Shown here: positions 3,365 to 43,060 of the stretch, piece by piece
How positions within the stretch are numbered: the first letter of the stretch is position 1
Layout: the number at the start of each line of letters is the position of its first letter
Source of the DNA: a virus
Virus record (IMG/VR): IMGVR_UViG_3300025655_000008
Coordinates: 1 to 44,360 of that record
DNA length: 44,360 bases
Direction: 5' to 3' (one strand)
Made by a program: the position numbers and the translations under genes
The notes under the pieces: generated by a model
What the model saw: the letters and a program-made list of their open reading frames with translations, nothing else
What the model was told of the DNA's origin: nothing
Database searches by the model: none

Positions 3365-6300
3365 CTAGTCCCTTAGCTTCGCTCGGTCTTCGTCGTAGCC
3401 CATGAGCAGATCGAAATAAGACCAGTTGTTTTCCTCGTCTAGCTGAGCCGCCCAGCCATCCAAAAACCGTGTTGGCTGAACGGCGGGGATACCCACTATG
3501 ATACCGAGAGACATGACAATCGGCTTCAAGACTTTTACCCTATCGCTGTCCTCCCACTCGACCTCTTCATCCATCCAATCCGCCATAACCTCGAACGTCT
3601 TGATTAGGTTCTCCCCGAAAGCCGACAACGGTGTCGGGCTGTACCCGTAATCAGAGACCGCCCCTTGAATAAGGTCGCGAGCCAGCGGCACCGTAGCGGT
3701 CGCAGATAGCAGCGTTTGTCGGCCTAAGTAAGCGAGCATACTTTCGTCGTCCTCGTCTTCCGGCTCCCAGTCGGGCAGCTCCCCGCGTATGAGAGCCATA
3801 CCGAGTTCCTGCAGCGTAAGGACGACGAAGATGCGGCTCGCTGCCCGCAGCACGGTCATCGGGTTGGGCTTCTCTACTACTTCCCCGCCGACCTGCCGGA
3901 GGATGCCGTACAGAACAGAAAAGAAAGAGTAGAACATGGTGACGGACTTCCAGAGACCGCGCTTCCGTTGGATAGCAGACAGGTCTTTCTCGCCGCCCCC
4001 AGACTGCGATAGGCGCAGGACACGGTCAGCGTAGGCTACGGACTTGTCTACATCCTGCCCGCTGTCCCGCATCATTCGGTTGTACGCCGCCGTCCACGTA
4101 GGGAAGTCTACGGTGTTGAGCTGCATACCCGCGACCGACATCATGGCCATCATCTGAGCCTTAGCGCGTACCCCCTTCTTACCCTCAAGTGCCCGCATAC
4201 CGTTGCGGAGTTCGCGGTCCACGTTCTGCATACGGTGACGCATCTCGCCAGATAACCTATAAACCTCCTTGCGGTGTGCGGGGTCAAAGACCTTAGCGAT
4301 GCCGTGAGCGATGTCTCCGGTCGTAACCAGCGCCTGACCCGGCGTGTAGGTATTGTCTGCCGTCAGTCGATCAAAGGTCGTCAGTAGACCTAGGGTCTGG
4401 GCCATCATCGTCGTGTAAGACAGGCCGAGGATGGCGACCGTAGTATTTCGTCCCAAGGCAGCGACAATGCCGTCGGCGATGTCTAGGTGAGTGTTGTCTC
4501 CCGCCATCGCTGCGATCCAGTTGTCGATCATCTTGGCGTACTCGATGCCGACCTTGCGCTCTAGGTCTCCACGCAGCTCCTTGTTCGACATAAGGCGCTT
4601 GGCCTGCTGGACAGCCTTATAGTGCGTGATGAAGTGCGTTGTCGTCTGGAACCCGTGAGGCAGTTTATGTATCTCCAAAGACACCGGGGCATAGAACGTG
4701 TCAGACCTCTCCTTGGTCATCGAGCTGTTGACGCTGGCCCGCCCGACTTGAGACTGCATCATCTCCAGAGCCGTCATTTGCTCCAGCATACTGCGCTTGC
4801 CGTCTCCGCCGGGGATAGACGCATCGTACATCATCGGGAAGTAACCGCCCTTGAAGGTTCCGTGCGGCGTCTCGATGGGGCGCGGCTCGATACGGTCGGG
4901 GCTGCGCCCGTTCTCGGCCCGATAGATGGCATCGACCTGCGGCCACATTTTCTCAGCCAAGTCCCAAATCTCTTGCACCAGCTCCCACTCTTCTTTGGTG
5001 AGCTGCTCCAGCGCCTTGTCGATTAGCTCCTCGTTGATGTTCCAGTTGGGGCCGTCAGGGTCGGCGTAGCCCTTGATCAATTTATCGAGGTTGCTTTGGT
5101 TACCTGTGTTCAGCGCCAGCATGATGAGCATACTGCGCGTGAAGACGGTCTTCTCCGTCCCGAGGTCGCCGACATCGACGCGTTTGCCCATATTCTTGCG
5201 GACCTTGCGAGGCAGCGCCGACATCCTCTTGTTGATGGCGTCTGTGACCTCTTTCATCATGTCCTGCTTCTGCGCGTAAGCGTCAGCGAACGGTTGGTAT
5301 AGGGCTTGGTGCCACGCGCCGAGAGGCTGCCCGTCGATGGCCTCCATGAGCTGCTCTATTTTGAGCAGGACACTATCCACTTTGCTTACAGTAGCCGCCG
5401 CCCCGTGCAGGGCGTGCGCCTTGCCGCCAGCTCGCCGAAGCCGGGTCGTGATGGCATCGCTCTCGCCGACTAGAGGACGCCGCATATCAGCGACAACTTG
5501 CCGCATCTCTCGCTGCTCTTTACCGAAGATCGCACGCTTCTTATTGCGGCCCTGCTGCTCAAGCATCTTAACGGCATCGTTCACTTCGCGAAGCTCGCCG
5601 ACCGTCATGTCTCGGAAATTCTTTTTGGCGTCTTTCTCCCGCAGCCACTGGGGCAGCTCGATAATTGCCCCCTCTTTCTGCTCGTTCTCGATGAAGTCAT
5701 TGAGAGCTTGAAGCTCCGCATTCAGACGGGCGCGTTCGCTTGTCTTGCTGCCGAAGTCGAGGCGGTTGACTATGTTCTTGATGTTGTCAACGTAGTCGGC
5801 GTCGATACCCTTCCACTTCTTGCGCTTGAGCTGGAACGTCCGCAGGTACTTAGTGATCTTGCGGTGCTCCTCTTGGAAGCGGATCGCCTGTTTCGCCAGC
5901 TCGTGATTAACGAGCCGCTGAAACTGGTGCTGGTATGCCGTGGCTCGGTCGCCCTTTTTGAGTGCCTTGCCCGCCAGCTTGGCGTGACGCTTCTCGGCGG
6001 CAAGGAATTTGTACGGCTGAGACTGTCCGACAGGCATCTCGGCCAGACGCTTCTGCGCGTAGTACCGCAGGAACTTGGCGTCGAACGCAGGCTCCGTCGT
6101 GCGTAGGGCTTGCAGCTCGCTCATCAAAACACCCGTGACGGGATCACTGTGGATCGAGGCTGTTGCCTCTCCTATGGCGTCCACGTCCATGTCGCCGTGG
6201 CGGGCCTTCATCTCTGCTTCGATGGAGCTGTTGACGGCGCTATCAAACGACGGCAGCTCCAGCAGGGCGTCTATCATCTCCTCTGGGCTGGTGAAGCCGA

Positions 6301-9300
6301 ACATCCCAGCAGCGACTGCTGGAGAGGTGACGTTACCGTCCTTCGTTGCAACCTCGTAGATAGCCCGATTGTCCACTCGCGGCAGCTCCTCGACGATGCG
6401 CCCTTCCGGCATCATCTCAACGAGGGCTTTGCGGTCGATACGATTAAGTAGCAGCTCACTGGGTAGGGTGCTGCCGTCCGCCTCACCGCCCTGCGTGAGG
6501 GCGTAAAGGATGCGGTATTCGCGCTGTTGCGACACCGTGCTCTCGATGTCGGGACGCAGCTTCTCAGCCTCGTCCTGATACCACTCAAGGCGCTCGCGCT
6601 GCTTGTCCCTAATGTGCTTGCTGAGCTGCTTGCCCTTGGCTCGGTCCTTGGCGCGGGCCGTTGCCGCCTGCATCTCTTGGAACTTCTCCGGCGAGACGCC
6701 AGCCTCCTCTGCCGTCTCGAACAGCGCCGTCAGCTCGTACTGACTTGCGGCCAGCTCGATCTCGGCGTCAGACGCCAGCATACGGTCGAGGACGCCTTTG
6801 ACTTCCGGCGAGAACTCGACATCGAGGCGCTGGCCTCGGATGCGGCGATAGACGGATTTGATGAAGTTGCTAAACGCAATGAAGGCGTCCAGCAGTGCCA
6901 TCGACGGAGCTTCGCCAGTCTCAAAGTATTTCTCGACACCGCGAGCGAACTGCTCGTGCATAGCGACGCTGAGATAGCGGGTCGCGCCCGTACCTCGAAG
7001 TTCGCCCTGTCCGATGTAAGTGCGGACCTGCGCAGCCGTCATCTTTTGCAACGCGGCAACGGCAGCCTTGTCACCGTCTTTTCGGGCGCGTCTGATGGCC
7101 TCCTCTTTGACCTGCTCGGAGCGGCTCTGCCACCACTTGGTGACGGTACGCCAATCTTTCTCAAAGCTGTCTCCGAAGCGGGCGGCGTCCGACTTGAGCT
7201 GCTCAAGCCAGAAGTGCCCGCTTTCGTGCAGGAAGGTGGACGTGTCGCCCTTCTCAAAAATCTGGATCAGGTTGACGGGGTTGCCGTCTTGATCTGGGAT
7301 CAGGTCGCTGGGGGTGAACCCACCACGCGGCGGAGCCTTGCCTTCCGAACCCTGCTCAAACGCAGGGGTCGTCTCCTCGGGCACATTGATCGCAGCCTGC
7401 TGTGCGTTTAGAGCGTCGCCGTAATCAGTGAAAAGGGTGCCCGGTGCGTCTGCGGGCTTGTCGTAGTTGTCCACGTCCAAACCCATGAACACGACATCCG
7501 GCTCGCCGTTGTTGAAGGCAGAGAAAACGGACTTATCCCAATCTGGCGGGGCTTCACCTTCGTCCCACGCTAGACGGCCCCCGATGCGGAACCCGTGCAT
7601 AGAGTAGAGTTCCGGTAACACGGTGTCGAAGGCGTCCAGCCTCCGGCCCCCCGCTTGGATGGCCAGCTCCATCATGGAATGGACAACGCCGTCGTATTTC
7701 CCGGTCGAGAACACCGACACGATGTCGTCGCCCTTGAGCGCGAACCCTGCCTCCCCGTCTTCCGACATGAATAGACGCATCTCTGCGTACTCATGCTCCT
7801 TGTAGACGTATACGGACGCGCCGAACGGCGACGCCTTCTTGCTCTGCTGGATACGGGAATGAAAGTCCGCAGCGAACTCCGCGCCGTCTACCTCAAACAA
7901 AGGCGGCGTCTGGATACCCCCGGCATTAAGGTCGTTTACGGTTTTTCGTGCAGCGATTTTGTAGCGGTATAAACTCGGCTTTCCTAGAACCCGAAAGCCT
8001 TTGCGATTTCCTCCGCCTTCTCTTCGGTAAGGCCGGGGTGACGCTGCATCGCTGCTTCTAGCGGATCGTAGTCGAGTGATTGCTTGGCGGGCGAGGAAAC
8101 GCTTGCGCTGGCTGGCACTGAACTGGCCGCCTGCCCCCTGTTGCGCAGCACTTGATCCTGATCCACTTGCGCCTCGTCGTGCGCTTTTAATTCGTTTGAT
8201 GTCCGCATCTTTCGCACCTTTCTGTTTAGCCAGCTTGGCAGCCGCGTTTGCGTAGTCTGGAGCCTCGTCATCGTCGTATCCGCTGTCCGCGTCATCTTTG
8301 CTTTTGGCAGCGTCGTACAGTCGCTTCTCTGGATACCAAAGAAGAGCCTGTAAATCTGACATAGTCAGTGTCTGAAGTCCATGATTTTCTTGCAGGTCGC
8401 GGAGAGCGTCAGCGAACACGGCGCGGATAAAGTTTCTCTGGTTGCCGTCTCTGGGCTGCTCCACTTGGCCATCTAAATACTTAGTAAGGGCATTGGCCAA
8501 CTTGCGGATGTCATCGCCTAGAACAACGGTGTTTCCCTCAGTAAAGCGGATCAAGTTGAACGCGTCGCGCTTCTGTTTGGAAATGAAGATGCGACGGCCT
8601 AACAAGCCAGCGATGTCGGCAACATTTTCTGCGGTAACCTCGGAGGGGACAGTAACCCCAGCCAGCCCCTCGACGGCAGCGCGGGTGGTGTCGTCTGCTA
8701 GGAACGCCGCCAGCAACGGAGTAAGCTCCTCCGTTTTAGCTGCGACCATATCAGGGCGGCTCTCGATGAGTGTACCCGTCCAACGGCCCCACGTCCGCAT
8801 CAGCCAACGGTCCATCGTCAGCGCATCAAAATAGCCATACAGGTTCGAGAAGAACCCGTTGCCAATCTTCGGACCTAGAACGGCAGAACCTCGCAACACT
8901 GTGTCTATATTCTCGCCTGTCAATTTGACGCCGGATGTCTTTTCGATCTGCCCACGGGTGAACTCCGAGGTCATAAATCGACGCAGGTCAGCGTACCCCC
9001 AGCGGTCAATCAATTCGTTATATAGGGCCAGCCCCTCGTTGATGGCCGCTTGCGCTTGCCCAGCCTCGATATCGGTTGGGAACTTTCCGGTGTTCTTACT
9101 GCGCTGATAGACCTGCTCTGCAAGCTGGAAGTTTTTATCCACCTTGAGGCCGTTAGATGTAACGGCCAAGCCCCAGATGAAGCGGAGCTTCGCGCTCTCG
9201 TCGGTCTTTAACTCTGGGTGGATCAGCGATACGTATTCGAGGGCTTGGCTGACTTTCTCGTCATACCAGCCGACCGCGTTCGCGTTGTCCTTGAGAGCGT

Positions 9301-12300
9301 AAAGAGCATCTTGCACTGCGACGCGAGTGAGGTGTGCCTGTACCTCTGGGGTCTGCTCGGAGAGGTCGATGCCGTCCTGCACAGCCGCATCCAGAACCCG
9401 CTCTTGCAGGGTCACCTTTAGGCTCCGGTTATTAGGGAAGGTCGTCTTCCCGGCCTCATTGAATGACACCTCTAGGCTCGCAGCCTTCTCGGTGTTGGAC
9501 ATCGTCGGAAAATCATCTTGGAAGAGGAACGTCTCGGCGTCTCCATACGTCACGTTCTTGGCCATGACCAGCGGGCCGACTTGGATAACCTCGTCCGCGC
9601 TCAGGACCGGGCGTCGGGTGCCGCGCTCATAGAAGAACGTGTGCCGTCGCGGATCGTAGCCGACCTGCGTCCATGCCGGGTCTTCAAGGGCGGCAACCAT
9701 CTCATCTTTGAGAGCTACCGGATCGACTGATTGCAGGGTGCCGTTGATCTGGGCAAACGGAGCTTTCGGGGTCTGCCCGGTGCCTACCTTTGCGGCCTTC
9801 CGCTCGGCTGGGTCACCCGGCTTAGTGAACTCGACTTCGGTGATCTTGGCTGCGGCCTCGTGGGCAATAGGCTTGCCCTTCGGGTCGTGCATCGTCGGAA
9901 CCCAAGTGTCGTGGTTTGTGTAGGCCGGGATGTCGAGCCGAAGCCCCACCGCCTGCCCAATGAACTGCCCACCTTTGCCCACGCGCTCCTGTTGCCCAGC
10001 TTTGAGGGCCGCCCGCATCTCTGCCTCAGTGGCAGGGCGCAGACCGCGCACGTCTTCATCGGAGTAAACGGTAGCTGGCCGCTCGCGCTCGACGACGGCA
10101 TCATATTCTTCTTGCGTGATCTCTCCGGCGACGCGACGACGTGCGGCCTCGGCCACGATTTCGTTGGGGTCGTCAGCAAACCGTTGCCGCTGCTCAAATG
10201 CGCCCTCGACAATCTGCCCCTGCTCGACGCGAAGGCCGTCCTCTAGGAACAAGTCCAGTGCGCGGACAGGCGTACCCTCGGCCTTGGTGGCGCGGATGGC
10301 GCGAGCCATGTACCGCTGGGCAGTTAGCTGGGCAAATAGCCCGATCTCACGGGCGCTGTACTGCCCAACATTCTGTAGCTGCTGCTCCATCTCGACGCGG
10401 ATCGCGTTGGCGTCCTCAAGGAAGTCGTCGAGGTATTTCTCTTCGACGCCGAGGCTGCGCGTGATGCGGTCCATTGCCTCTTGGTTGATCTTGGCGAGAA
10501 CGTCCTCTTCCAGCGCGTCAAACTGCTCCGCTTCCGCTGGCGTGAACTCCTCGGCGTCGGTGCGGGTGTGGCGAAGCAGCTCCGAGAACCCATCCTTGCC
10601 TAAGATGTGGCGGACAAACGTCGCGGTGTCGATGGTAACGTCTTGGCCGTCCTTGGCAGCCTGCTTTACCTCTTCGGGATCGAGGCCGAGGGTCGCTACA
10701 ATGTCGGTGTCGTCGTCCTGATCGAACCGCATCAGCTCGGACGCGCTCAGGAGGACACGCTCGACGCCTTGGCCTTTCCATTTCTCAGCCAATACCTCGG
10801 ACGCCGTCCGCAGGCTCTCGGTGGGGATACCATTTATGTGACCGGCCACCTCAGTGTTGCCGCGCAACCATTCCTCGGCCCGCTTCTTACGACGTGCCTC
10901 GGAAACATCCTGCTGTCCGGCAATGGCGATGTCCGCCATGACTTGGCCGGGGTGTGCCTCCGCCAGAGCCTCGACAAGTGTCTCCACGACATCGATCTCA
11001 CCAAGGGATAGCAAACCAGCGCCCGCCTCACCCGCGCCTCCCAGAAACGCCTGTACGGGGGTCTGGGCTATGACGTTACCCGTCGCCGAGCTGGCTAGGG
11101 ACTTGGACGCCGTCCACATACTCAGGCCAGCGAATACGGCGATGGGCATAGCGCGGGCGCTGGAAAAGTCGATCTGTCGGCGCAGCGCCTCTGGGTTGTT
11201 AATGAACTTCTGCTGCCCTTCGGTTGTCGTCAGGTCGATACCGAACTCTTTTTTGAGCTGCTCGACTGCCGGGGTGTACCGCTCTTGAATGTACGCGGAG
11301 GCGACGGAGACGGAGGGCGCTAGGACTGCGCCAGCGGGGAGCCGCTTCGTCGCGAGTGCTGCGCCGATGGTCGGAGCCTGCTCCGCCATAACCTCAGTGA
11401 AGAACGCGGTGGCCGATAGTGGGTTGTCGCGAAGTGCGCGGATAAACGCGCCGACCTGCCCGAGCTTCCCACCTTCTTTGGAGATGGCATTCATCTGCTG
11501 CATGAATGGTTGGGCAGCGTCAGAGAACTGAAGGTCGCCCATCATTTTGTAGCGGGCCATCGCCTTCTTTAGAAACTCAGCAGCCTGCGCAGCCTTCTCT
11601 TTAGAAGTCTCGTCCGAGACCAGCCGCTCAAATAGTCTGGGGATGACGTTAAAGGCTAGGTTACCCGCCCCGATATCAACACCGAACTGCTCGTTGGTGA
11701 AGGCGTCGGAGATAACGTCGAGGATGGGTTTATCAGCGTCCTGTGCCGCTATCAACAGCTCCTCGGCGTTCTCCATGAAGTAATTCATCTGTATACGGAC
11801 AAGGCCACGCACGGTGCCGTTAGCGGCACCTTCACCGAAGGTTACCCGTTCACGGGGCAGCGAACGCAGGTAGTCGGCATACGGAGGGACGATCTGTAGC
11901 CCGAGGCTTTCGATTGCCTTCTCAGAGGCCGCCATAGGCTTGATGACGCCCTTGAGGACGGCAGCGGCCTCTGCGTCCACAGCCATGCGCAGGCGCGTCT
12001 GGCGGGCCTGTTTCAGACTGTGCTGGATGTCTTGTCGCTCCAGCATGAGGCGGCGCTGCTCTGGGTGCATATTCCGAGCTAGGTTGACGGCGGCAGCAGG
12101 CGGCCCCTTGAGTTCTTCGCCAGTCTCTGGATCGATGTCGGGCTGCATCCCCATACGCTGCACCAGCAGCTTGGCGACGGCCTCGTTCTCTTCGTCGTTG
12201 GTCGGCGGGGTGCCGTCCATCAGCGCCAAGTTACGCTCGACCTCTTTGGTCAGCGGGTGCGGAAGTTCTCTGGCGGCAGCAATGGTCGGTCCTAGCTGTT

Positions 12301-12469
12301 TAGGCGCAGCCTCCGGCTGCGTGGGAACCGGGGACGGCGTCGAATACGGCACCACGTTGCTAATAGCAAACGGGTCGTCTACAGGTTTTGGCGGCTCAAC
12401 TGGAGTTACCGACGGGCCTTGCGGCTCAGTGCTGGGAGTGAATGGTGCTATCGCAAACTTATCCGTCAT
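3365..12469 (-). CDS. Giant internal virion / polyvalent ejection protein with zincin metallopeptidase motif
   Basis: 3034 aa, about 21% of the genome. The ATG at 12469 overlaps the preceding stop (TAATG) and has GGAG upstream. An in-frame start 33 nt earlier lies inside the upstream gene and is less likely. Seen in order: a Pro-rich disordered N-terminus (1-60); hydrophobic segments near 356-390 and 435-486; a conserved block at 840-970 (WVPTMHD ... SADEVIQVGPLVMAKNV); a block at 1016-1236 ending ILGPKIGNGFFSNLYG; an acetyltransferase-like block at 1503-1673 (LPELYSMHGFRIGG); a zincin with HESGH at 1748-1752; long charged helices at 1950-2400; and a C-terminal block (about 2820-3034) resembling the LPD38 domain of polyvalent proteins. 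Such proteins are packaged and injected with phage DNA, acting in ejection and in early protection of the incoming genome. No RNA polymerase motif was found. Domain names are inferred from memory of the families. Confidence 0.85.
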   Translation of the reverse strand: MTDKFAIAPFTPSTEPQGPSVTPVEPPKPVDDPFAISNVVPYSTPSPVPTQPEAAPKQLGPTIAAARELPHPLTKEVERNLALMDGTPPTNDEENEAVAKLLVQRMGMQPDIDPETGEELKGPPAAAVNLARNMHPEQRRLMLERQDIQHSLKQARQTRLRMAVDAEAAAVLKGVIKPMAASEKAIESLGLQIVPPYADYLRSLPRERVTFGEGAANGTVRGLVRIQMNYFMENAEELLIAAQDADKPILDVISDAFTNEQFGVDIGAGNLAFNVIPRLFERLVSDETSKEKAAQAAEFLKKAMARYKMMGDLQFSDAAQPFMQQMNAISKEGGKLGQVGAFIRALRDNPLSATAFFTEVMAEQAPTIGAALATKRLPAGAVLAPSVSVASAYIQERYTPAVEQLKKEFGIDLTTTEGQQKFINNPEALRRQIDFSSARAMPIAVFAGLSMWTASKSLASSATGNVIAQTPVQAFLGGAGEAGAGLLSLGEIDVVETLVEALAEAHPGQVMADIAIAGQQDVSEARRKKRAEEWLRGNTEVAGHINGIPTESLRTASEVLAEKWKGQGVERVLLSASELMRFDQDDDTDIVATLGLDPEEVKQAAKDGQDVTIDTATFVRHILGKDGFSELLRHTRTDAEEFTPAEAEQFDALEEDVLAKINQEAMDRITRSLGVEEKYLDDFLEDANAIRVEMEQQLQNVGQYSAREIGLFAQLTAQRYMARAIRATKAEGTPVRALDLFLEDGLRVEQGQIVEGAFEQRQRFADDPNEIVAEAARRRVAGEITQEEYDAVVERERPATVYSDEDVRGLRPATEAEMRAALKAGQQERVGKGGQFIGQAVGLRLDIPAYTNHDTWVPTMHDPKGKPIAHEAAAKITEVEFTKPGDPAERKAAKVGTGQTPKAPFAQINGTLQSVDPVALKDEMVAALEDPAWTQVGYDPRRHTFFYERGTRRPVLSADEVIQVGPLVMAKNVTYGDAETFLFQDDFPTMSNTEKAASLEVSFNEAGKTTFPNNRSLKVTLQERVLDAAVQDGIDLSEQTPEVQAHLTRVAVQDALYALKDNANAVGWYDEKVSQALEYVSLIHPELKTDESAKLRFIWGLAVTSNGLKVDKNFQLAEQVYQRSKNTGKFPTDIEAGQAQAAINEGLALYNELIDRWGYADLRRFMTSEFTRGQIEKTSGVKLTGENIDTVLRGSAVLGPKIGNGFFSNLYGYFDALTMDRWLMRTWGRWTGTLIESRPDMVAAKTEELTPLLAAFLADDTTRAAVEGLAGVTVPSEVTAENVADIAGLLGRRIFISKQKRDAFNLIRFTEGNTVVLGDDIRKLANALTKYLDGQVEQPRDGNQRNFIRAVFADALRDLQENHGLQTLTMSDLQALLWYPEKRLYDAAKSKDDADSGYDDDEAPDYANAAAKLAKQKGAKDADIKRIKSARRGASGSGSSAAQQGAGGQFSASQRKRFLARQAITRLRSARSSDAASPRPYRREGGGNRKGFRVLGKPSLYRYKIAARKTVNDLNAGGIQTPPLFEVDGAEFAADFHSRIQQSKKASPFGASVYVYKEHEYAEMRLFMSEDGEAGFALKGDDIVSVFSTGKYDGVVHSMMELAIQAGGRRLDAFDTVLPELYSMHGFRIGGRLAWDEGEAPPDWDKSVFSAFNNGEPDVVFMGLDVDNYDKPADAPGTLFTDYGDALNAQQAAINVPEETTPAFEQGSEGKAPPRGGFTPSDLIPDQDGNPVNLIQIFEKGDTSTFLHESGHFWLEQLKSDAARFGDSFEKDWRTVTKWWQSRSEQVKEEAIRRARKDGDKAAVAALQKMTAAQVRTYIGQGELRGTGATRYLSVAMHEQFARGVEKYFETGEAPSMALLDAFIAFSNFIKSVYRRIRGQRLDVEFSPEVKGVLDRMLASDAEIELAASQYELTALFETAEEAGVSPEKFQEMQAATARAKDRAKGKQLSKHIRDKQRERLEWYQDEAEKLRPDIESTVSQQREYRILYALTQGGEADGSTLPSELLLNRIDRKALVEMMPEGRIVEELPRVDNRAIYEVATKDGNVTSPAVAAGMFGFTSPEEMIDALLELPSFDSAVNSSIEAEMKARHGDMDVDAIGEATASIHSDPVTGVLMSELQALRTTEPAFDAKFLRYYAQKRLAEMPVGQSQPYKFLAAEKRHAKLAGKALKKGDRATAYQHQFQRLVNHELAKQAIRFQEEHRKITKYLRTFQLKRKKWKGIDADYVDNIKNIVNRLDFGSKTSERARLNAELQALNDFIENEQKEGAIIELPQWLREKDAKKNFRDMTVGELREVNDAVKMLEQQGRNKKRAIFGKEQREMRQVVADMRRPLVGESDAITTRLRRAGGKAHALHGAAATVSKVDSVLLKIEQLMEAIDGQPLGAWHQALYQPFADAYAQKQDMMKEVTDAINKRMSALPRKVRKNMGKRVDVGDLGTEKTVFTRSMLIMLALNTGNQSNLDKLIKGYADPDGPNWNINEELIDKALEQLTKEEWELVQEIWDLAEKMWPQVDAIYRAENGRSPDRIEPRPIETPHGTFKGGYFPMMYDASIPGGDGKRSMLEQMTALEMMQSQVGRASVNSSMTKERSDTFYAPVSLEIHKLPHGFQTTTHFITHYKAVQQAKRLMSNKELRGDLERKVGIEYAKMIDNWIAAMAGDNTHLDIADGIVAALGRNTTVAILGLSYTTMMAQTLGLLTTFDRLTADNTYTPGQALVTTGDIAHGIAKVFDPAHRKEVYRLSGEMRHRMQNVDRELRNGMRALEGKKGVRAKAQMMAMMSVAGMQLNTVDFPTWTAAYNRMMRDSGQDVDKSVAYADRVLRLSQSGGGEKDLSAIQRKRGLWKSVTMFYSFFSVLYGILRQVGGEVVEKPNPMTVLRAASRIFVVLTLQELGMALIRGELPDWEPEDEDDESMLAYLGRQTLLSATATVPLARDLIQGAVSDYGYSPTPLSAFGENLIKTFEVMADWMDEEVEWEDSDRVKVLKPIVMSLGIIVGIPAVQPTRFLDGWAAQLDEENNWSYFDLLMGYDEDRAKLRD

Positions 12470-14571
12470 TAGCGCCGCTCCGCCATAAACCGTCGGAGCC
12501 ATTCTTCATAAACCCCCTCATTCGCACGTCTATTGAGGTCGCTCATAACGTGATTAAACCCTGCCAAATCTGGACGTAAATTAGGTTGTGAAGCCTGCGA
12601 CTTTTTGATGATGAACTCAATCACCTCCGGTGAGTACCCGTTAGCTAAAGCAGCGTCCTGCGCATCGGTGTACCCCCGATAAGCGGCGGACCAGCTCTCC
12701 CCTCGCCGAACGGTTAGCCCCGTGGCCCGAAGGTTATCCAGAGTGAGGAGCTTATTCTGGCTATCCAACTTGGAGATGGCGTCCTTGATGGTAGCGTCAT
12801 CCACGCCAAAATACGACTGAAGTATACTTCGGTTTACGCCGCTGTCACTTATCGGGAGTGATCCTATATTAGCGCCGTCTTGCTCGGCTTGGGTCAAAGT
12901 ATATGGCCCCGACTGAGTGACGGACATAAACCCTACGGTTTTTCCCGTATCGTAATCGTCAAGCCGAAGGACGTGCTCAGCCAATATAGGAACAATATCG
13001 GCGTCGGTAACGTCCTTACCTGTTTTTTCAAAAATGTCGGCGCGGACGTTGTTAATAGCTTTTTGCAGCTCCGTATCCACCAGCAGTTTGTTATAGTATT
13101 TGTCATCGGTCTTAAAGCCATAGGACTTGAGTAGGGTGGATACGTTGTATCCCTTAGTGTTTCCGGTGCGGATGTCCAGAACCTTACTGCGATGCTTTTC
13201 GACTTTGTTCAGCACCTCGTTGTAGTCGTCTACATCAAGAACCCGTCGAAGGGTCGCCCGCCCCTCCTCAGTCTCGACCATCTTAGTAAGCTGGTCGGGG
13301 GCGTTTTCGTAGAGCCTGTCGTAGGCTCGTTTTGCAGCAACTACAGAGGCGGCAGCGCCCCCGCTGTCCATGTGAGCCTGTGCGGCTACTGTCTGCGCCC
13401 CAATGTCCGCAGCCTTCCCCGGCAGCCGAAGGACCTGCATAAGTGCCTCGGGACTGGAAGAGGCAACGATGGCCAGTTTTGCGCGAAACTTCGGGTCATT
13501 AGCCGGGACGCCTTGCCCCATCATTCGGCTCAGGTCTTCGGAGGCTACCCGAACCGTTTCTCCGCGCTGTGCCGCCAGCACGCCTGTATAGAGGCGTAGC
13601 TGCTGCAACATATTGCCTTGCTTGATAGGGTCGTCTGCGTACTTCCTATAGATAGTATCGTACATCGTGACGACGTTGTCCTTGCTCTCCACGCGGAGGG
13701 TGTCGAACTCGGCTCGTGAAGCCTGCTCCTGTTCAAACCCAAGGACGGCTGCTTGGTGCTTCCGGCCAGCCTCGGTGCCGTCAAGTATGTCGGCGTGCTC
13801 CTTCATTACGGAGCGGGCGTCCTCGACATACCCCTGCGCTAACAGGTCTCCGATGTATTGATCTAGCAGGATAGCCTGCTGCTGCTTCTTGAGCACCTCA
13901 ACGGCGGCAGGGTCGGTGATGCCGCTCGTCTTGGCCATACCGAAACGCTTGGAGGTTACGACGCTGCTGATACCGTTTAGGGCGTCTTTTAGTTTCTGCC
14001 CCTGCATCTCTGTGCCGATGGCAGCCGTAGCGGCTTCGGTATGGCTGGCGATGGCCGTACCCTGCTCAGTGATATCGGCCTGCTTCTGTGCCTCGATCTG
14101 TAGGCCGTTAAGGGTGATGTTGTGCTCCAGCGACTTAATGCGAGCCATGTCGCGGATCGCCTTGGCACCGTCAGACGTTTGGACCCCATGCTTCTTTAGG
14201 ATCGCCTCGATCCCCCCGTCGGCGATGGCCGTAGCTTTATCCCCCTGATCGACTTGACCGGGGTGGCCCTTTGGCGTCAACGCGTCTAGTCGCTGCTGCC
14301 CAGACAGGGCTTTGAACTTCTGAGTATCAGACGCTAGGTAGGTGTCGATCTCAGCCTCGGCAGCTTTTACGGCGCGGTCGTCCTCGCTAAGTGCCAAAGA
14401 CGTCATCTCGTCGGAGAAGCTGGCCAGCCCCTCCGCCGCCTTGGCGGCGAGCGCCCCCCCGTCTCCGAACGCCTCTTTAGGTGCCTTGAGGTCAGAATAA
14501 GGGGTTCTGATCTCAGCCAGCGGGGCGCTGCCTAGCCCTGTCGATCCCGGTGTGGGTACGCGTGCAACCAT
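12469..14571 (-). CDS. Internal virion protein (T7 gp15-like position)
   Basis: 700 aa, mostly alpha-helical and charged, with no recognised catalytic motif. It lies between the small core protein and the giant ejection protein, the place and size class of T7 gp15-type internal core proteins. It probably forms part of the ejectosome that extends across the host envelope. The ATG at 14571 overlaps the previous stop (TAATG); an upstream in-frame GTG is less likely. Assignment rests on position and composition, not on a recognisable domain. Confidence 0.7.
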   Translation of the reverse strand: MVARVPTPGSTGLGSAPLAEIRTPYSDLKAPKEAFGDGGALAAKAAEGLASFSDEMTSLALSEDDRAVKAAEAEIDTYLASDTQKFKALSGQQRLDALTPKGHPGQVDQGDKATAIADGGIEAILKKHGVQTSDGAKAIRDMARIKSLEHNITLNGLQIEAQKQADITEQGTAIASHTEAATAAIGTEMQGQKLKDALNGISSVVTSKRFGMAKTSGITDPAAVEVLKKQQQAILLDQYIGDLLAQGYVEDARSVMKEHADILDGTEAGRKHQAAVLGFEQEQASRAEFDTLRVESKDNVVTMYDTIYRKYADDPIKQGNMLQQLRLYTGVLAAQRGETVRVASEDLSRMMGQGVPANDPKFRAKLAIVASSSPEALMQVLRLPGKAADIGAQTVAAQAHMDSGGAAASVVAAKRAYDRLYENAPDQLTKMVETEEGRATLRRVLDVDDYNEVLNKVEKHRSKVLDIRTGNTKGYNVSTLLKSYGFKTDDKYYNKLLVDTELQKAINNVRADIFEKTGKDVTDADIVPILAEHVLRLDDYDTGKTVGFMSVTQSGPYTLTQAEQDGANIGSLPISDSGVNRSILQSYFGVDDATIKDAISKLDSQNKLLTLDNLRATGLTVRRGESWSAAYRGYTDAQDAALANGYSPEVIEFIIKKSQASQPNLRPDLAGFNHVMSDLNRRANEGVYEEWLRRFMAERR

Positions 14572-15116
14572 TATGTCGTCCACTTATCTACGGCAGCGAA
14601 CTTACCCGCTACCTTGGGTGCTCCCGCCAACAGGGTTCCAAGCGCGGCCTTGCTGGCGTTACTGTTGTCGGCTTTGAGTTGGAACAGGGACGCCTCCATA
14701 TTAAAGTCATCCTGCTGGATACGGGCCTGTCGAACCGCCCCTGCAGTCTTATCGTCTACCTTGTCCAGATCATGGCGCTCAGCCGCTTTCAAGTCGGCGA
14801 GGAGGCTAACGTTGGTGCTGTTGGGGTCATCGATAAGGAAGCCCTTGGCCCCTTGAATAGCCCGAGCCGCTCCATAGTAACGCGCCGCCCGCTCTCTAAC
14901 CTCGTCGCGGGCTACCTCTCCCTCCTGCTGAATGCGCGTTACGTTCTGCTCTGCGATGGTGGCGTTTCTTAGTGCCATGTCGCGCTGAAATTGCGCTTGC
15001 TGCCGAGCCTGCTGCGCCTGCGTGTAGGCGGAGTAGACGCCAAAGGCGAGAGAGGTGACGGCACCGATACCAGCCCACGCGGCTGCGGTAAGACCTAAGA
15101 ATACAGGGGCTACCAT
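14571..15116 (-). CDS. Internal virion core protein (T7 gp14-like)
   Basis: 181 aa. The N-terminus carries a hydrophobic helix (VFLGLTAAAWAGIGAVTSL), followed by a long Gln/Ala/Arg-rich coiled coil (residues 30-75). This is the usual layout of small podovirus core proteins that insert into the outer membrane on ejection. It overlaps the start of the next gene by TAATG and itself begins at the stop of the nozzle-like gene, so it is translationally coupled on both sides. Confidence 0.78.
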   Translation of the reverse strand: MVAPVFLGLTAAAWAGIGAVTSLAFGVYSAYTQAQQARQQAQFQRDMALRNATIAEQNVTRIQQEGEVARDEVRERAARYYGAARAIQGAKGFLIDDPNSTNVSLLADLKAAERHDLDKVDDKTAGAVRQARIQQDDFNMEASLFQLKADNSNASKAALGTLLAGAPKVAGKFAAVDKWTT

Positions 15117-26582: not shown

Positions 26583-26733
26583 GGTAGCTCGAATGATCCT
26601 GCGGCTTTGCGACGCAGGTGTGGTCAGGGTGATCAGGGTTGGCGATGTCTGGCAGCTTACGTGCTCCGCACACGCGGCACACTGGCACGCGGCTCTGCCC
26701 TGCTGGAGGTTCTTTCCATTGATGCTCAGCCAT
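26554..26733 (-). CDS. Small Cys/His (zinc-ribbon-like) protein between TerS and TerL
   Basis: 59 aa: CRVCGARK, then HPDHTC after about 17 residues, giving a plausible C2-H/C zinc site. The ATG at 26733 overlaps the small terminase stop by 8 nt (ATGGCTGA), and the 3' end overlaps the TerL start by 29 nt, the compact coupling seen through the operon. Many phages carry such a small Cys-rich ORF in this place. Function unknown; perhaps a terminase accessory factor. Confidence 0.6.
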   Translation of the reverse strand: MAEHQWKEPPAGQSRVPVCRVCGARKLPDIANPDHPDHTCVAKPQDHSSYHESEYDPLP

Positions 26734-27481
26734 TGACGACCTTCAAGTGTTGGCGTTGTTCCGTCAGCCGCTCACGCGCCTCTTGAATGCGCTTGTCGAG
26801 AGCAGTCATGTCGTGGTTCTCGTTGATGTTCTTCGTCGCAGGGAATTGATCGAGGAGCTTCGATTGAAGCTCGATGCCTTTCATCGCTGCCGATACTTGA
26901 TCGGTGTCGATGGCTTGCTGGATCAGATCGTCGAGCCTTTTGATCTGGCTCGCTACCGTTTTCTCCAGCCCCTCGATGATCGGCTCCCGCAGTTCCTCGA
27001 TCCTAGCCGCAATCAGCCCGTCAGCCATCAAGTCTTTAGCACGGTTGTGGATCGTGTTGGGCTTCATGTTCTCAGCGTCATACGCTGCGCGATATGCGTC
27101 GCTCTGGTTCATTCCTTCGACGATGCATTGGCAGAACTTTTCCTGCTTCGGAGTAAGACGCTTCGGTGAGGTCGAGGGCTTTGTGCGATCACCAGCTCCC
27201 CCGCCGTTTTGATTTGTGAGCTTGTCCAAGCCGATGCTCGCGATGCGGCGCTGTTCTTCGGCGTATGCCTGATCATCAGTATCGTGCCACGAGAGTACAA
27301 CAGCCTCGGGTTTGAACCCATCGGCCTTAATCTCCTTGATGCGCTTTGCCTTGTCGCCGGACTTTTCGACGTCACGAGGAAGGTCTCTGAAATGCTGAAA
27401 GCGACGAGCCGATGACCCCTTGCCGATGTAAAACGGCTGGAGATCACGCGGGTCGATCAGTGCGTAAACGTAGTGTCTCAT
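26726..27481 (-). CDS. terS: GIY-YIG nuclease domain fused to terminase small subunit
   Basis: 251 aa from ATG 27481, which overlaps the upstream stop as ATGA. Residues 1-95 form a GIY-YIG domain: YVYALID, PFYIGKG, Arg and His in ARRFQHF, Glu in AYAEEQRRI and Asn in LTNQNGGGAG. All the usual catalytic positions are present (LEM-3-like arrangement). Residues about 105-165 are a small-terminase HTH: LTPKQEKFCQCIVEG, SDAYRAAYDA, TIHNRAKDLM. The rest is helical and suits oligomerisation. TerS binds the packaging site and recruits TerL; the fused nuclease may cut at or near that site. The next two genes are a zinc-ribbon-like ORF and TerL, which supports the packaging role. Confidence 0.88.
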   Translation of the reverse strand: MRHYVYALIDPRDLQPFYIGKGSSARRFQHFRDLPRDVEKSGDKAKRIKEIKADGFKPEAVVLSWHDTDDQAYAEEQRRIASIGLDKLTNQNGGGAGDRTKPSTSPKRLTPKQEKFCQCIVEGMNQSDAYRAAYDAENMKPNTIHNRAKDLMADGLIAARIEELREPIIEGLEKTVASQIKRLDDLIQQAIDTDQVSAAMKGIELQSKLLDQFPATKNINENHDMTALDKRIQEARERLTEQRQHLKVVNG

Positions 27482-27810
27482 GGCGCAGAGCATAACCCAG
27501 CTTTGCGCATCAAGTCCAGTAGGGTCTCCTCCTCCAGCACGTAAAGCCGACGCTGTCTATCTTCTCGTATGCACAGCATATCGTTGACCTCGTCCTGATC
27601 GAGGCTCTGATACAAAAAACGGTAGCCGCTCTTCTTGCGCTTACATTCGATCACATACGGCCCGAGCTTCACGTCTCCGGCGAGGTCTTCGCTGTAGTTC
27701 TTGAACGCGCCGGACCCGACGTTGCGCTGAACCTCCGCGCCGTGCTCTCGCCAGAATAATACCGTCTCTCTCTCCAGCTCATAACCACGCTGCTTATTTC
27801 GATTTGCCAT
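27478..27810 (-). CDS. Holliday junction resolvase-like PD-(D/E)XK nuclease
   Basis: 110 aa, the size of archaeal Hjc. The motif order fits: Glu13 in RGYELERE, GSGAFKN, Asp46 in DLAGDVK, and E55-C-K57 in YVIECKRKK. The following SGYRFLYQSLDQDE helix is also Hjc-like. It probably resolves branched replication or packaging intermediates before DNA is packaged. Good RBS (AGGAG) before ATG 27810. Its 5' side is the TGCTAC repeat region. A VRR-NUC-type or other restriction-fold nuclease is the alternative. Confidence 0.78.
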   Translation of the reverse strand: MANRNKQRGYELERETVLFWREHGAEVQRNVGSGAFKNYSEDLAGDVKLGPYVIECKRKKSGYRFLYQSLDQDEVNDMLCIREDRQRRLYVLEEETLLDLMRKAGLCSAP

Positions 27811-30961: not shown

Positions 30962-31828
30962 ATGAAAAAGCAACGCATCGACGCCTACCAAGTCATCACC
31001 GACAAAATCATCGCCGCCCTTGAGGCTGGCACCCGCCCTTGGGAAAAGAGCTGGGCCACCACCGGGGGTCTCCCTCTTCGCCACAACGGTGTGCCTTACC
31101 AGGGCATCAACGTCTGGCTGCTGGGTATGTCCCCGGCCAACGTCGGTCGTCACTGGTTTACCTACAAGCAGGCTGAGGCTCTTGGGGCGCAGGTTCGCAA
31201 AGGCGAGAAAGGCAGCCAGATCATTTTCTTCAAGCCCCTCAAGATCAAAGATAAGGAGAGCGGCGAAGAGAAGAAAATTCCGCTGATCAAGATTTACAAC
31301 GTGTTCAACCAATCGCAGATCGACGGCCTGCCCGCCAAGTTCGACGCGCCAGTAGTTGAGCAGAACGCTGAGGAGCGCGACGCAGCCGCTCAGGCATTCT
31401 TCGATGCCGTCGGCTTCGCCACCAAGCACGGCGGCGACCTTGCCTTCTACATCCCATCGCAGGACTATGTGCAGATGCCTAAGTTCGAGACGTTCGAGAG
31501 CGGCGAGGCATACTACGCCACCCTCGCCCACGAGTACGTCCACATGACCGGACACGAGAGCCGTCTCGACCGTAACCTCAAGAACTCCAACGGCACCCGC
31601 GACTACGCCAAGGAGGAGCTGATCGCCGAGATGGGCGCAGCGTTCGTCATGGGCGGCCTTGGCCTCTCCGCCGAGCCGCGTGAAGATCACGCTTCCTACT
31701 TGGCCTCGTGGCTCGAAGTTCTCAAGGCCGACAACAAGGCCATCGTCCGCGCAGGCAGCGCAGCACAAAAGGCCGCCGACTTCATCTTTGAAGCGGCGGA
31801 CCAGAAGCTCAATAAGGAGGTAGCATGA
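30962..31828 (+). CDS. ardC: ArdC-like antirestriction protein (ssDNA-binding domain + zincin)
   Basis: 288 aa. Residues 5-125 form the ArdC N-terminal ssDNA-binding domain (YQVITDKIIAALEAG, PWEKSW, GINVWLL, GEKGSQIIFFKPLK). The C-terminal zincin has HEYVHMTGH (about 196-204) and ELIAEMGAAF providing the likely third ligand. ArdC proteins shield incoming DNA from type I and II restriction; early expression from a consensus promoter fits. The downstream gene starts by ATGA overlap. Confidence 0.9.
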   Translation: MKKQRIDAYQVITDKIIAALEAGTRPWEKSWATTGGLPLRHNGVPYQGINVWLLGMSPANVGRHWFTYKQAEALGAQVRKGEKGSQIIFFKPLKIKDKESGEEKKIPLIKIYNVFNQSQIDGLPAKFDAPVVEQNAEERDAAAQAFFDAVGFATKHGGDLAFYIPSQDYVQMPKFETFESGEAYYATLAHEYVHMTGHESRLDRNLKNSNGTRDYAKEELIAEMGAAFVMGGLGLSAEPREDHASYLASWLEVLKADNKAIVRAGSAAQKAADFIFEAADQKLNKEVA

Positions 31829-32118
31829 AGCTCTATCGGATCAGCGCAGGGATCAATGGCGATCCCTGCGGCTTGGAGGAGCAGGCTCTCCTCGAAGTCG
31901 TCCTCGATCACGCCGCTGACCTGACGATGCGTCGGGTGCAGGGGTTCTGGAACGGGCAGCCCGTCCACACTTACGAGCTGGACGTGGCGTCCGATAGTCA
32001 GGACTATATTGAAGGGCTGGCCCGCGCCGTCGGGACGGTTTTGGACCAGGATTGTGTTATGGTGACTGAGATCGGCCACGCAACCTACATTAAAACATCA
32101 ACGGAGGATTTTCACTAA
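31825..32118 (+). CDS. Hypothetical protein coupled to ardC
   Basis: 97 aa, acidic alpha/beta (MKLYRISAGINGD, HTYELDVASDSQDYIEGLARAVG, VMVTEIGHATYI). Starts by ATGA overlap with the ardC stop, preceded by AAGGAGG, so the two are co-translated. No family recognised; possibly an accessory of the antirestriction step. Confidence 0.7.
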   Translation: MKLYRISAGINGDPCGLEEQALLEVVLDHAADLTMRRVQGFWNGQPVHTYELDVASDSQDYIEGLARAVGTVLDQDCVMVTEIGHATYIKTSTEDFH

Positions 32119-39626: not shown

Positions 39627-40532
39627 ATGCAAGACAATACCATCAAGGCAATCAAGGGCTTCAACACCGACATGACGTGTCGGGGCTTCCAGTACGAGGA
39701 AGGCCAGACCTACAAGCACGATGGGCCACCGGCGCGCTGCACGGAAAGCGGCTTTCACGCCATCGATGGCAACCCGCTTTCCGTGTTCAGTTTTTACCCG
39801 CCGACCAAGAGCGTGTACCACGAAGCTGTGTGCGGTGGCGACATCGACCGAGACGGCATCGGTTCCAAAATTACAGCATCGGAAATCACCATTCACGCAC
39901 GACTTGAATTGCGTGAGTTGATCGCGCGCGCGGTCGATTGGATTTCAGCCAAGGCAAAAAGGGAAGGCGACAAGCAACTCGCCACCGGCTACGGGTCGAG
40001 CGCCGCCAGCAACGGCGAAAGGTCGAGCGCCGTCAGCAACGGCGAAAGGTCGAGCGCCGCCAGCACCGGCTACAGGTCGAACGCCGCTAGCAACGGCTAC
40101 GTGTCGAACGCCGCTAGCAACGGCAGATGGACGAGCGCTGCCAGCAACGGCAACTGGTCGAGCGCCGCCAGCACCGGCGACTGGTCGAGCGCCGCCAGCA
40201 ACGGCAACGGGTCGAACGCCGTCAGCACCGGCGAAAGGTCGAACGCCGCTAGCAACGGCAGATGGACGAGCGCCGCCAGCACCGGCGACTGGTCGAGCGC
40301 CGTCAGCACCGGCGACTGGTCGAGCGCCGCCAGCAACGGCAAGCATAGCGTTGCCATGTCGGCGGGCCTCGACGGAATGGCCAAGGGCGCGAAAGGTTGT
40401 GCGTTGTTTCTGGTCGAACGCAACGACGATGGCGAAATTATCGCCGCCTGGGCGGGCATCGTCGGGAAAAAGCGCATCAAGCCCGACACGTTCTACACGC
40501 TCAAGAACGGCAAGCCGGTGGAGGTTGAGTGA
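39627..40532 (+). CDS. DUF7666-like protein with thirteen 9-residue SxAxSxG repeats
   Basis: 301 aa. N-terminal domain (1-110) is DUF7666-like: TIKAIKGFNTDMTCRGFQYE, ESGFHAIDGNPLSVFSFYPP, then ITASEITIHARLELREL. Residues 123-239 are thirteen tandem 9-mers with consensus S-S/N-A-A/V-S-N/T-G plus two variable residues. C-terminal 60 residues (GCALFLVERNDDGEIIAAWAGI ... RIKPDTFYTLKNGKPVEVE) are a compact beta domain. The repeats probably form a beta-solenoid. Function unknown; such proteins are widespread in phages and host genomes. Confidence 0.8.
   Translation: MQDNTIKAIKGFNTDMTCRGFQYEEGQTYKHDGPPARCTESGFHAIDGNPLSVFSFYPPTKSVYHEAVCGGDIDRDGIGSKITASEITIHARLELRELIARAVDWISAKAKREGDKQLATGYGSSAASNGERSSAVSNGERSSAASTGYRSNAASNGYVSNAASNGRWTSAASNGNWSSAASTGDWSSAASNGNGSNAVSTGERSNAASNGRWTSAASTGDWSSAVSTGDWSSAASNGKHSVAMSAGLDGMAKGAKGCALFLVERNDDGEIIAAWAGIVGKKRIKPDTFYTLKNGKPVEVE
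39993..40343 (+). repeat. Thirteen 27-bp tandem repeats within the DUF7666-like gene
   Basis: Each 27-bp unit encodes one 9-residue repeat. Most of each unit (GGTCGAGCGCCGCCAGCAAC type) is nearly constant while the six bases that encode the dipeptide between GGC and TCG change: Glu-Arg, Tyr-Arg, Tyr-Val, Arg-Trp, Asn-Trp, Asp-Trp, Asn-Gly, Lys-His. A fourteenth degenerate unit follows. Strand slippage should change copy number readily. Confidence 0.93.
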
Positions 40533-41841: not shown

Positions 41842-42020
41842 TTAATGCCCCACCCTTTGATTGTGAAGTGCCGCGCCTCGTCGGCGGTAAACCTCATATA
41901 TTCCTTGCGCTCGTCGGTCTGCGTCATGATGTAATACGGTCGAAGCGGGTTTTTTGCGTCAATGCCGAAACTTACCTTCGGCGCGTCAACGTATTTTTGC
42001 ATGGTGTTTTGCTTATTCAC
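41838..42020 (-). CDS. Small hypothetical protein (GTG start)
   Basis: 60 aa from GTG 42020 in a GTGA overlap with the metallophosphoesterase stop; ATG 42002 (54 aa) is the alternative. Mixed alpha/beta (KVSFGIDAKNPLRPYYIM, EYMRFTADEARHFTIKGWG). No family recognised. Chained to its neighbours by stop/start overlaps. Confidence 0.6.
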   Translation of the reverse strand: MNKQNTMQKYVDAPKVSFGIDAKNPLRPYYIMTQTDERKEYMRFTADEARHFTIKGWGIK

Positions 42021-43060
42021 GCACCATCCCTCTTTTGAACGATCTTGAGATAGTCGCAGCCGTCCTCAATGTCAGCGAAGCTCCGAATGAACTTGATCTG
42101 GTTGTCTTGCATCTTCGGACGAATAACGAACATGACCGACGCGCCATATTGCTGTTCATGGAAGCCGTGCCGATGCGCATGATCGTCAATGTACTTGTAC
42201 CCCCGCGCGCGGGCCAGGTGGACGACACGTCCATCCGGCATTTCCTTCTGCTTTAGCGCCCAGGTGTGATGGTGGCCGGCGACGAAGATATCCGCGTCCT
42301 CGTCCATGTTGGCGGCCCGCTCTTGGCCGTGCAACTCGTTCCACATGGAATGACCCTTGTGGTTGTGCGCGGCGTCCACGCGCGCCTCAACGCCGCCGGG
42401 GAACACCAGCCGGAACCGCGCCCGCCAATCGAGCATGGGGATCATCTGAGCGTTGATGGTCTTGAGGTAGGTCGAGAATGACGGCTCCATCTCGTCGTGG
42501 TTCCCCATGAGCCAGACGAGCCACGGAACGTTGCTATCTTCAAGGAACCATCGCGCGAGTCGCCGCTCCGTTGAGCGAGAGACATCGTTTTCGGCGTAGA
42601 GCCTGACCAGCCGCCCGCCCCAGTTGTCTGCGGTGTCGCCAATGTTCACCGCATAGCAGTTTGGCGTCTCGCTCATGAGCTTTACGTGTTGGCGTAACAG
42701 CGGGATATTACAGCCGTTAGAACCAAGATGCGGATCACCCACCACCACGACTCCGATGGGCTCACTCGTCTTGAACTTGATGGGAAACCAGTGCATCGAT
42801 CTGGTGTGCTCGGAACGCTGCTTAAAACGCTTTTCCATCGTGTCAAGGATTTGCTCGGCGTCAATGTCGTCGTCGGGGAACTCGGGCAGCATGACTTTCG
42901 GCTCTGTCTCGCGTTCCAGCGCCCTGTTGTATCGGTTGCTCAGTGTCTTGCGCGGCATTCCAAGAGCGCGAGCGGCGGCGGCAACGGAACCATGAATATC
43001 AACCGCTGCAACGGCGTCGTCCATATCGTCGTCTGTTAGAGGCGACCATGTATCACTCAT
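42017..43060 (-). CDS. HTH-domain metallophosphoesterase
   Basis: 347 aa. Residues 12-50 hold a Fis-type helix-turn-helix (AVDIHGSVAAAARALGMPRK, TLSNRYNRAL). The rest is a calcineurin-like metallophosphoesterase: D109-x-H111 in VVVGDPHLG, GD at 141-142, GNHD at 186-189, H in AAHNHKGH and GHHHTW near 273. All metal ligands are in place. Comparable phage enzymes have been called DNA-repair or Mre11-like phosphoesterases; substrate here is unknown. Unusual to sit between fibre and lysis genes of a late operon. Confidence 0.85.
   Translation of the reverse strand: MSDTWSPLTDDDMDDAVAAVDIHGSVAAAARALGMPRKTLSNRYNRALERETEPKVMLPEFPDDDIDAEQILDTMEKRFKQRSEHTRSMHWFPIKFKTSEPIGVVVVGDPHLGSNGCNIPLLRQHVKLMSETPNCYAVNIGDTADNWGGRLVRLYAENDVSRSTERRLARWFLEDSNVPWLVWLMGNHDEMEPSFSTYLKTINAQMIPMLDWRARFRLVFPGGVEARVDAAHNHKGHSMWNELHGQERAANMDEDADIFVAGHHHTWALKQKEMPDGRVVHLARARGYKYIDDHAHRHGFHEQQYGASVMFVIRPKMQDNQIKFIRSFADIEDGCDYLKIVQKRDGA

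Follow-up and report, generated by a model that had tools for sequence, protein, structure and literature searches.

A giant gene that takes up about one fifth of the genome (9105 of 44360 bases), as a preliminary description had stated, encodes a protein that by sequence comparison is a member of a large family including Bbp10 of Bordetella phage BPP-1. The window denotes the whole stretch of DNA that was analysed, 44360 bases, which is a complete single virus record. Comparison with relatives showed that two parts of the protein are constant, namely the N-terminal region and a C-terminal unit in which a predicted zincin-like domain is joined to a helical core of about 1200 aa, and that the middle is exchangeable; in the window, it comprises a stretch called module X, a helical block related to DUF7178 (block A) and a predicted GNAT domain. 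Our working model, in which we have moderate confidence, is that the protein occupies the gp16 position among the ejection proteins of a T7-like podovirus and combines a constant machine, exchangeable cargo and a zincin that would act in release or refolding. The features concerned are listed below.

3365..12469, minus: whole gene, 3034 aa; PHROG 9880, E 5.1e-241
10373..11479, minus: N-terminal family region, residues 342-710, common to PHROG 9880 positions 249-617, E 6.7e-9
9518..9958, minus: module X, residues 849-995; weak likeness to phrog_586 and Mycobacterium phage L5 gp82, E 7.5e-4
8093..9454, minus: block A, residues 1017-1470, helical; putative remote relative of DUF7178
7469..7909, minus: GNAT acetyltransferase-like domain, residues 1532-1678; phrog_2563, AF2 model and VIA-align
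6893..7327, minus: zincin-like domain, residues 1726-1870; alignment and AF2 model
7214..7228, minus: HESGH, residues 1759-1763; motif conserved in relatives
6932..6955, minus: EQFARGVE, residues 1850-1857; candidate third ligands Glu1850/Glu1857
3368..6892, minus: C-terminal helical core, residues 1871-3045; residues 2380-2838 weakly like T7-type gp16
4382..4438, minus: hydrophobic segment in the sequence, residues 2689-2707
3788..3844, minus: hydrophobic segment in the sequence, residues 2887-2905
3476..3532, minus: hydrophobic segment in the sequence, residues 2991-3009
12469..14583, minus: 704-aa gene at the T7 gp15 position; Pfam search without a lytic domain
14571..15116, minus: T7 gp14-like internal virion protein; phrog_418
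30962..31828, plus: ArdC, separate from the giant protein; ArdcN and MPTase-PolyVal

The longest open reading frame, 3365..12502, begins at an upstream ATG at 12502 and encodes 3045 aa. The ATG at 12469 overlaps the stop codon of the upstream gene as TAATG and is preceded by GGAG. A start at this codon yields 3034 aa, and the coordinates 3365-12469 of the preliminary description, which gave no strand, are therefore correct; the strand is minus. Residue numbers refer to the 3045-aa form (P0001), and subtracting 11 gives those of the 3034-aa form.

The whole protein matched no family at cut-off in Pfam or NCBIfam and no PDB sequence above cut-off. PHROG 9880, a group of no known function, covers residues 1726-3019 and, with its positions 249-617, the N-terminal region, and this profile match over the C-terminal half plus the N-terminal region places the protein in the PHROG 9880/Bbp10-like family. 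Between the two matched regions, the window protein has about 690 residues more than PHROG 9880. When searched against a phage collection, the last 1320 residues matched 42 records, including BPP-1, CP2, AF, Carin1 and HU1, 36 of them over at least 80% of the length and all at less than 60% identity; the first 1725 residues matched 30 records in patches only. It was this difference that first pointed to a rear part that is constant and a front part that is mobile. A genome-contig search with the zincin and core of the window returned no relative; zincin-coding sequences occur in at least 485 IMG/VR stretches.

HESGH is the sole HExxH in the whole protein. In the zincin alignment (A6, 60 rows), HExxH is present in 59/59 covering rows, and Glu1850, Ala1853, Glu1857, Tyr1859 and Pro1866 are each conserved in 60/60. 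Because A6 was partly fed by a search whose patterns contain the zincin motifs, we recounted the motifs in loci found through other blocks. Here, HExxH lay at most 420 aa upstream in 43/43 distinct core tails, and a fixed pattern for the second, downstream Glu motif fitted 37 of the 43 and missed six; both motifs were present in 17 of 17 named phages. In the biased set of loci found through the zincin itself, HExxH occurred in 80/82, the two misses being one locus cut at its start and one reading-frame fragment that begins within the tail. HESGH, on which the preliminary description had remarked, is thus corroborated in cores collected without use of the motif and, judged by this conservation, is not a chance occurrence. 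The lack of a third metal ligand had been named as evidence against a zincin; it did not apply, since Glu1850 and Glu1857 are plausible candidates.

An AF2 model of residues 1716-2890 (pLDDT 86.7, pTM 0.66) predicts for the zincin part two short strands, a helix bearing HESGH (model residues 39-61) and a later helix (model residues 125-146) that carries both glutamates, so that HExxH and the candidate third ligands lie on helices in the order expected of a zincin. This predicted layout is close to that described for the zincins of polyvalent proteins (Iyer et al. 2017, PMC5512222; cited here and below from part of the text). No structural match was obtained for the zincin because helical parts filled the VIA-align match list for residues 1716-2890, which hardly probed the zincin part. 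The zincin alignment gave weak sequence matches to Spartan/SprT (E 0.41) and no significant match in a PDB profile search. MPTase-PolyVal (PF18818) did not match P0001 and was absent among 25 of the 41 Pfam families listed for 23 family members, and no other peptidase model matched the giant protein. Zinc binding and proteolysis are candidate functions of the zincin.

The constancy of the rear was evident from lengths. Among 79 complete distinct proteins, the distance from HExxH to the end ranged from 1193 to 1424 aa (CV 0.033) and that from the start to HExxH from 255 to 2893 aa (CV 0.323); 67 reading frames that were truncated or had no motif inside the match were left out. We also took a census of domain order in 282 carrier reading frames, some of them cut by locus ends, which form 212 clusters at 95%. 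Zincin-core alone was found in 86 clusters, block A-zincin-core in 23 and block A-GNAT-zincin-core in 18; 42 had block A-GNAT without zincin-core and 18 GNAT alone, besides rarer orders. The gap from block A to GNAT had a median of 56 aa (range 38-140, n=67). Middle blocks thus move independently of the core, and into other giant proteins as well.

Exchange is nevertheless not free, since core and block A identities correlate across the 1275 pairs formed by 51 carriers with both (Spearman 0.59). In 410 pairs, cores less than 30% identical accompany block A more than 45% identical; the reverse, cores more than 40% but block A less than 32% identical, was found in five pairs, three of which join the window to L010, L013 and L038. 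These are the window's nearest block A-bearing cores (45-52%), and their block A is just 26-28% identical to that of the window, whereas cores 29% identical to the window's carry block A at 49-50%. Near cores with a distant block A and far cores with a near one argue for a separate lineage, and the middle of the window protein most likely derives from another lineage than its core.

The acetyltransferase-like block named in the preliminary description was confirmed by structure prediction. PHROG 2563, of no known function, matches residues 1570-1675. In an AF2 model of residues 1017-1712 built from a 47-row alignment (pLDDT 90.4, pTM 0.87), VIA-align placed model residues 516-662, that is residues 1532-1678, on 1yvk_A (Z 10.0, rmsd 2.6, 129 aligned), and the RimI structures 2cnm and 5isv reached Z 9.6; all of the 50 matches listed are acetyltransferases by title or fold. 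The block is thus predicted to adopt a RimI-like GNAT fold. With this model, Foldseek alone returned nothing at E <= 0.001, and a PDB profile search with the GNAT alignment gave no significant match. The CoA loop of GNAT enzymes carries the motif R/Q-x-x-G-x-G/A. In the alignment, the loop has G1605 in 40/47 rows without the canonical pattern; Tyr1633 is conserved in 46/47 rows, and Gly1637 and Phe1638 in 45/47. In Streptomyces phages and HATV-2, the same GNAT makes up a protein by itself. We also observed it as the C-terminal domain of gp4 of Microbacterium phage Caron (L022 3765-5342), a minor capsid protein in which the region before GNAT matches head maturation protease PHROGs.

Block A is strictly conserved at W1079, Y1080, S1116, N1124, G1210, K1212, F1217, N1220, D1231, W1233, R1236, Q1385 and W1389 (47/47 rows). 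The closest relative of the window, L008, with a core 56% identical, has a DUF7178 domain in its middle (28.3 bits against a cut-off of 27), and a profile of this L008-type domain matched block A across 69 columns (probability 94.5, E 7.8e-8). The Pfam model of DUF7178 (PF23802) did not match block A of the window, and direct and deep profile comparisons of block A with the other DUF7178 set were not significant; a comparison of the L008-type domain with the DUF7178 set was circular, as L008 is in both, and was set aside. Because the link runs through the L008-type profile and not through other DUF7178, we describe block A as remotely related to DUF7178 by sequence and not as a filed member. 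The sole PHROG match of block A, phrog_3842, is weak (E 0.17), and L008 matches it too. A wholly unrelated replacement middle in L008 was considered and dropped, since its DUF7178 is a distant relative. In loci where block A is absent (L014, L248/L251, L249/L252 and L256/L259), DUF7178 precedes the same GNAT. A tblastn search of the named phages with the L008-type domain gave no match.

The block A motif G-P-K ... T-x-D-x-W-x-x-R has by eye what we take to be a resemblance to HhH-GPD, which no search found. This would allow a modular injector in which a release zincin is combined with base-processing cargo, block A/DUF7178 being a divergent HhH-GPD-like domain of DNA glycosylase type that works with GNAT at entry, either on bases of the DNA or on targets bound to it. 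We regard this as very improbable. HhH-GPD (PF00730) was detected neither in P0001 at E <= 1 nor in block A members, and in 0/4 records searched, where the HATV-2 gene annotated as endonuclease III was not recognised either. PDB profile searches with block A, DUF7178-type and cassette alignments gave no significant match, and in the structure comparison of the 1017-1712 model GNAT matches filled the list ahead of block A. In HATV-2 (Haloarcula virus; L024 2881-3987, gp117-gp118), a lone GNAT adjoins the endonuclease III-annotated gene; gp118 was tried as a relative of block A/DUF7178 and rejected, as it matched neither profile.

Module X recurs in gp54 of Roseobacter phage CRP-9, which is encoded close to the portal gene, and in MW202701; its alignment gave no significant match in a PDB profile search. 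It lies before block A and GNAT in the window and behind them in the carrier L002. In L002 and L158 (a 4829-aa protein), we observed block A, GNAT and module X reordered in a giant protein without zincin-core.

The preliminary description had placed the gene in the ejection-protein position, and the gene order agrees. Genes for portal, protease and major head protein and gp11-, gp12- and gp14-like genes make up a late block, in which they are followed by the 704-aa gp15-position gene, the giant gene and a tail-fibre-like gene; the giant gene thus lies after gp14/gp15-type genes, as in T7-like gp16, and among virion genes, as in the polyvalent class. Named phages keep the same order, and there the preceding gene frequently carries the annotation structural lysozyme, transglycosylase or M23. 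The hydrophobic segments mentioned earlier were also recovered, all three within the last 360 residues. VIA-align gave weak matches of the core model to T7 9jyy_I (Z 5.8, rmsd 5.4, 221 aligned, model residues 665-1123), PhiM1 8vb2_A (Z 5.7, rmsd 6.9, 235 aligned) and E1004 9vvp_L (Z 5.1, rmsd 5.7, 212 aligned), all beginning at model residue 663-665. Just 10 of 396 aligned chains reached Z 5 and none reached 8, with two unrelated helical proteins ranking higher. Foldseek with the core model against PDB returned nothing at E <= 0.001, and a PDB profile search with the core alignment gave no significant match. The modelled likeness to T7-type gp16 is a hint in line with the place of the gene. 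In BFVD, 73 proteins matched the core at E <= 0.001 under names such as large polyvalent protein associated domain, ART-PolyVal, MuF C-terminal, N-acetyltransferase, nuclease and type I restriction enzyme; by model comparison, these are related cores carrying other cargo.

The giant protein is likely to be carried in the virion and to enter the cell along with the DNA. In our model, it would be packed together with the gp14- and gp15-position proteins and leave the virion first, before the DNA, and its core would thread the inner membrane like T7 gp16. The zincin, lying between cargo and core, would cleave a chain, its own or that of a partner, whereby the cargo would be released or the core become able to refold once ejected; GNAT would then acylate a host target, probably a protein. 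A fixed protease beside a swappable cargo suggests such a cargo-release step. As zincin-plus-core is nearly constant and the middle mobile, we consider the zincin to be integral to the ejection machinery, where it may free or refold cargo, and not to be an ArdC-like anti-restriction device. In relatives it accompanies the core irrespective of the content of the middle, even in minimal proteins of about 2050 aa such as BPP-1 Bbp10, which favours a general role in ejection or processing.

A separate ArdC zincin had been reported for this phage, and it is indeed encoded at 30962-31828 (+), with matches to ArdcN (E 1.5e-30) and MPTase-PolyVal (PF18818, E 2.7e-46). It shares a zincin with the giant protein and differs from it in being its own gene on the opposite strand, with ArdcN and the PF18818 match that the giant protein does not have. 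Directly behind it, at 31825-32118 (+), we noted an S-adenosylmethionine lyase-like protein (PF23780, E 4.6e-5, below cut-off), and the pair is a possible two-gene anti-restriction unit. It had also been proposed that the giant protein's zincin protects the genome beside ArdC, which is possible; the comparison did not bear this out, in that the zincin follows the core and matches no anti-restriction model.

A related alternative is that the zincin is an injected effector that cuts a host protein, for example a defence factor. Host-directed action is one option proposed for polyvalent-protein zincins (PMC5512222), and the phage invests in anti-restriction, as ArdC and the SAM-lyase-like gene are present. 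However, place and company of the zincin are constant in phages of hosts from Bordetella to cyanobacteria and it is the middle that swaps, so that, together with the lack of an anti-restriction match, we consider an effector rather unlikely. The same constancy of place and length would also fit a zincin-like fold that serves the core as a structural element stabilised by metal, without catalysis, and the zincin-bearing virion RNA polymerase of phage N4 is packed uncut, with the region needed for packaging (PMC5512222). The general-base Glu of HExxH would be dispensable at a zinc site with a purely structural role, yet this residue is as strict as the metal ligands (59/59 rows), which makes such an element unlikely.

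The zincin might instead act on the cell wall during ejection, as a peptidase that replaces the lytic enzyme in the gp15 position of relatives. The window's gp15-position gene is without a lytic domain where relatives have a structural lysozyme, transglycosylase or M23, and some records name the homologue lysin or lysis protein. These names are annotation only, however, and the zincin is kept in relatives with a lytic gp15-position gene too; we therefore judge a cell-wall role improbable.

Polyvalent ejection proteins are already known. Zincin and GNAT domains in polyvalent proteins, and possible processing by the zincin, were proposed by Iyer et al. (PMC5512222), and the window protein resembles that class in being one giant phage protein, encoded among late genes, with disparate domains including zincin and GNAT. 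Two disparate predicted activities thus reside in one chain, the zincin by motif and helices and the GNAT by fold. The Pfam polyvalent-protein models did not match its domains, and it differs in that its zincin is a fixed component of the core of a podoviral ejection protein, with cargo being exchanged to one side of it. The virion RNA polymerase of N4 and DdrB of P1 are likewise large packaged zincin proteins, one cut before packaging and one not (PMC5512222); Pfam finds neither a polymerase nor a ParB-like domain in the window protein. With T7 gp16 and podophage ejection proteins, it shares the operon place, C-terminal hydrophobic segments and a weak likeness of core fold. Domain swapping of enzymatic parts and mosaic ejection proteins have been described, and gp16 homologues span 609-1337 aa (PMC8954989, from part of the text, in which no metallo-, protease or acetyltransferase term occurs), whereas the window protein has 3034 aa and a predicted zincin and GNAT. 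Bbp10, annotated as crystallin beta/gamma motif protein, shares family and operon place and has HExxH at residue 797; it differs in its 2052 aa, a core about 27% identical and no block A/GNAT match in this comparison. Literature searches on Bbp10, Carin1, DUF7178 and a podovirus ejection protein with metallopeptidase gave nothing usable, and the accessible part of the Ab31 paper holds no mass spectrometry or proteome term. What appears new, from sequence comparison, is a podoviral ejection protein family in which the zincin-core is fixed and a slot accommodates cargo. If our model holds, a very widespread phage group possesses a standard injector that has its own protease and a site into which cargo can be plugged; a small number of mutants of cultured phages, for example BPP-1, could then test what zincins do in giant phage proteins, and the swapped middle would be a place to seek unknown effectors.

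Several further observations were made in the window and the related loci. A terminase small subunit at 26726-27493 (-) carries a fused N-terminal GIY-YIG nuclease domain (PF22945, E 8.6e-12; PHROG terminase small subunit; Terminase_2, E 1.7e-5, slightly short of cut-off). A calcineurin-like phosphoesterase at 42017-43060 (-) has a helix-turn-helix-like stretch at its N-terminus, and proteins with DUF7666 and DUF7483, of no known function, are encoded at 39627-40532 (+) and 43815-44348 (-), respectively. Limnohabitans phage DC33 (L019, PQ492659.1) has a podoviral giant protein of this family in a tailed-phage-like neighbourhood, yet its record is classed Inoviridae. In Vibrio phage 1.185.O (L025 19923-20318), four CRISPR spacers are annotated within a coding gene on the opposite strand.
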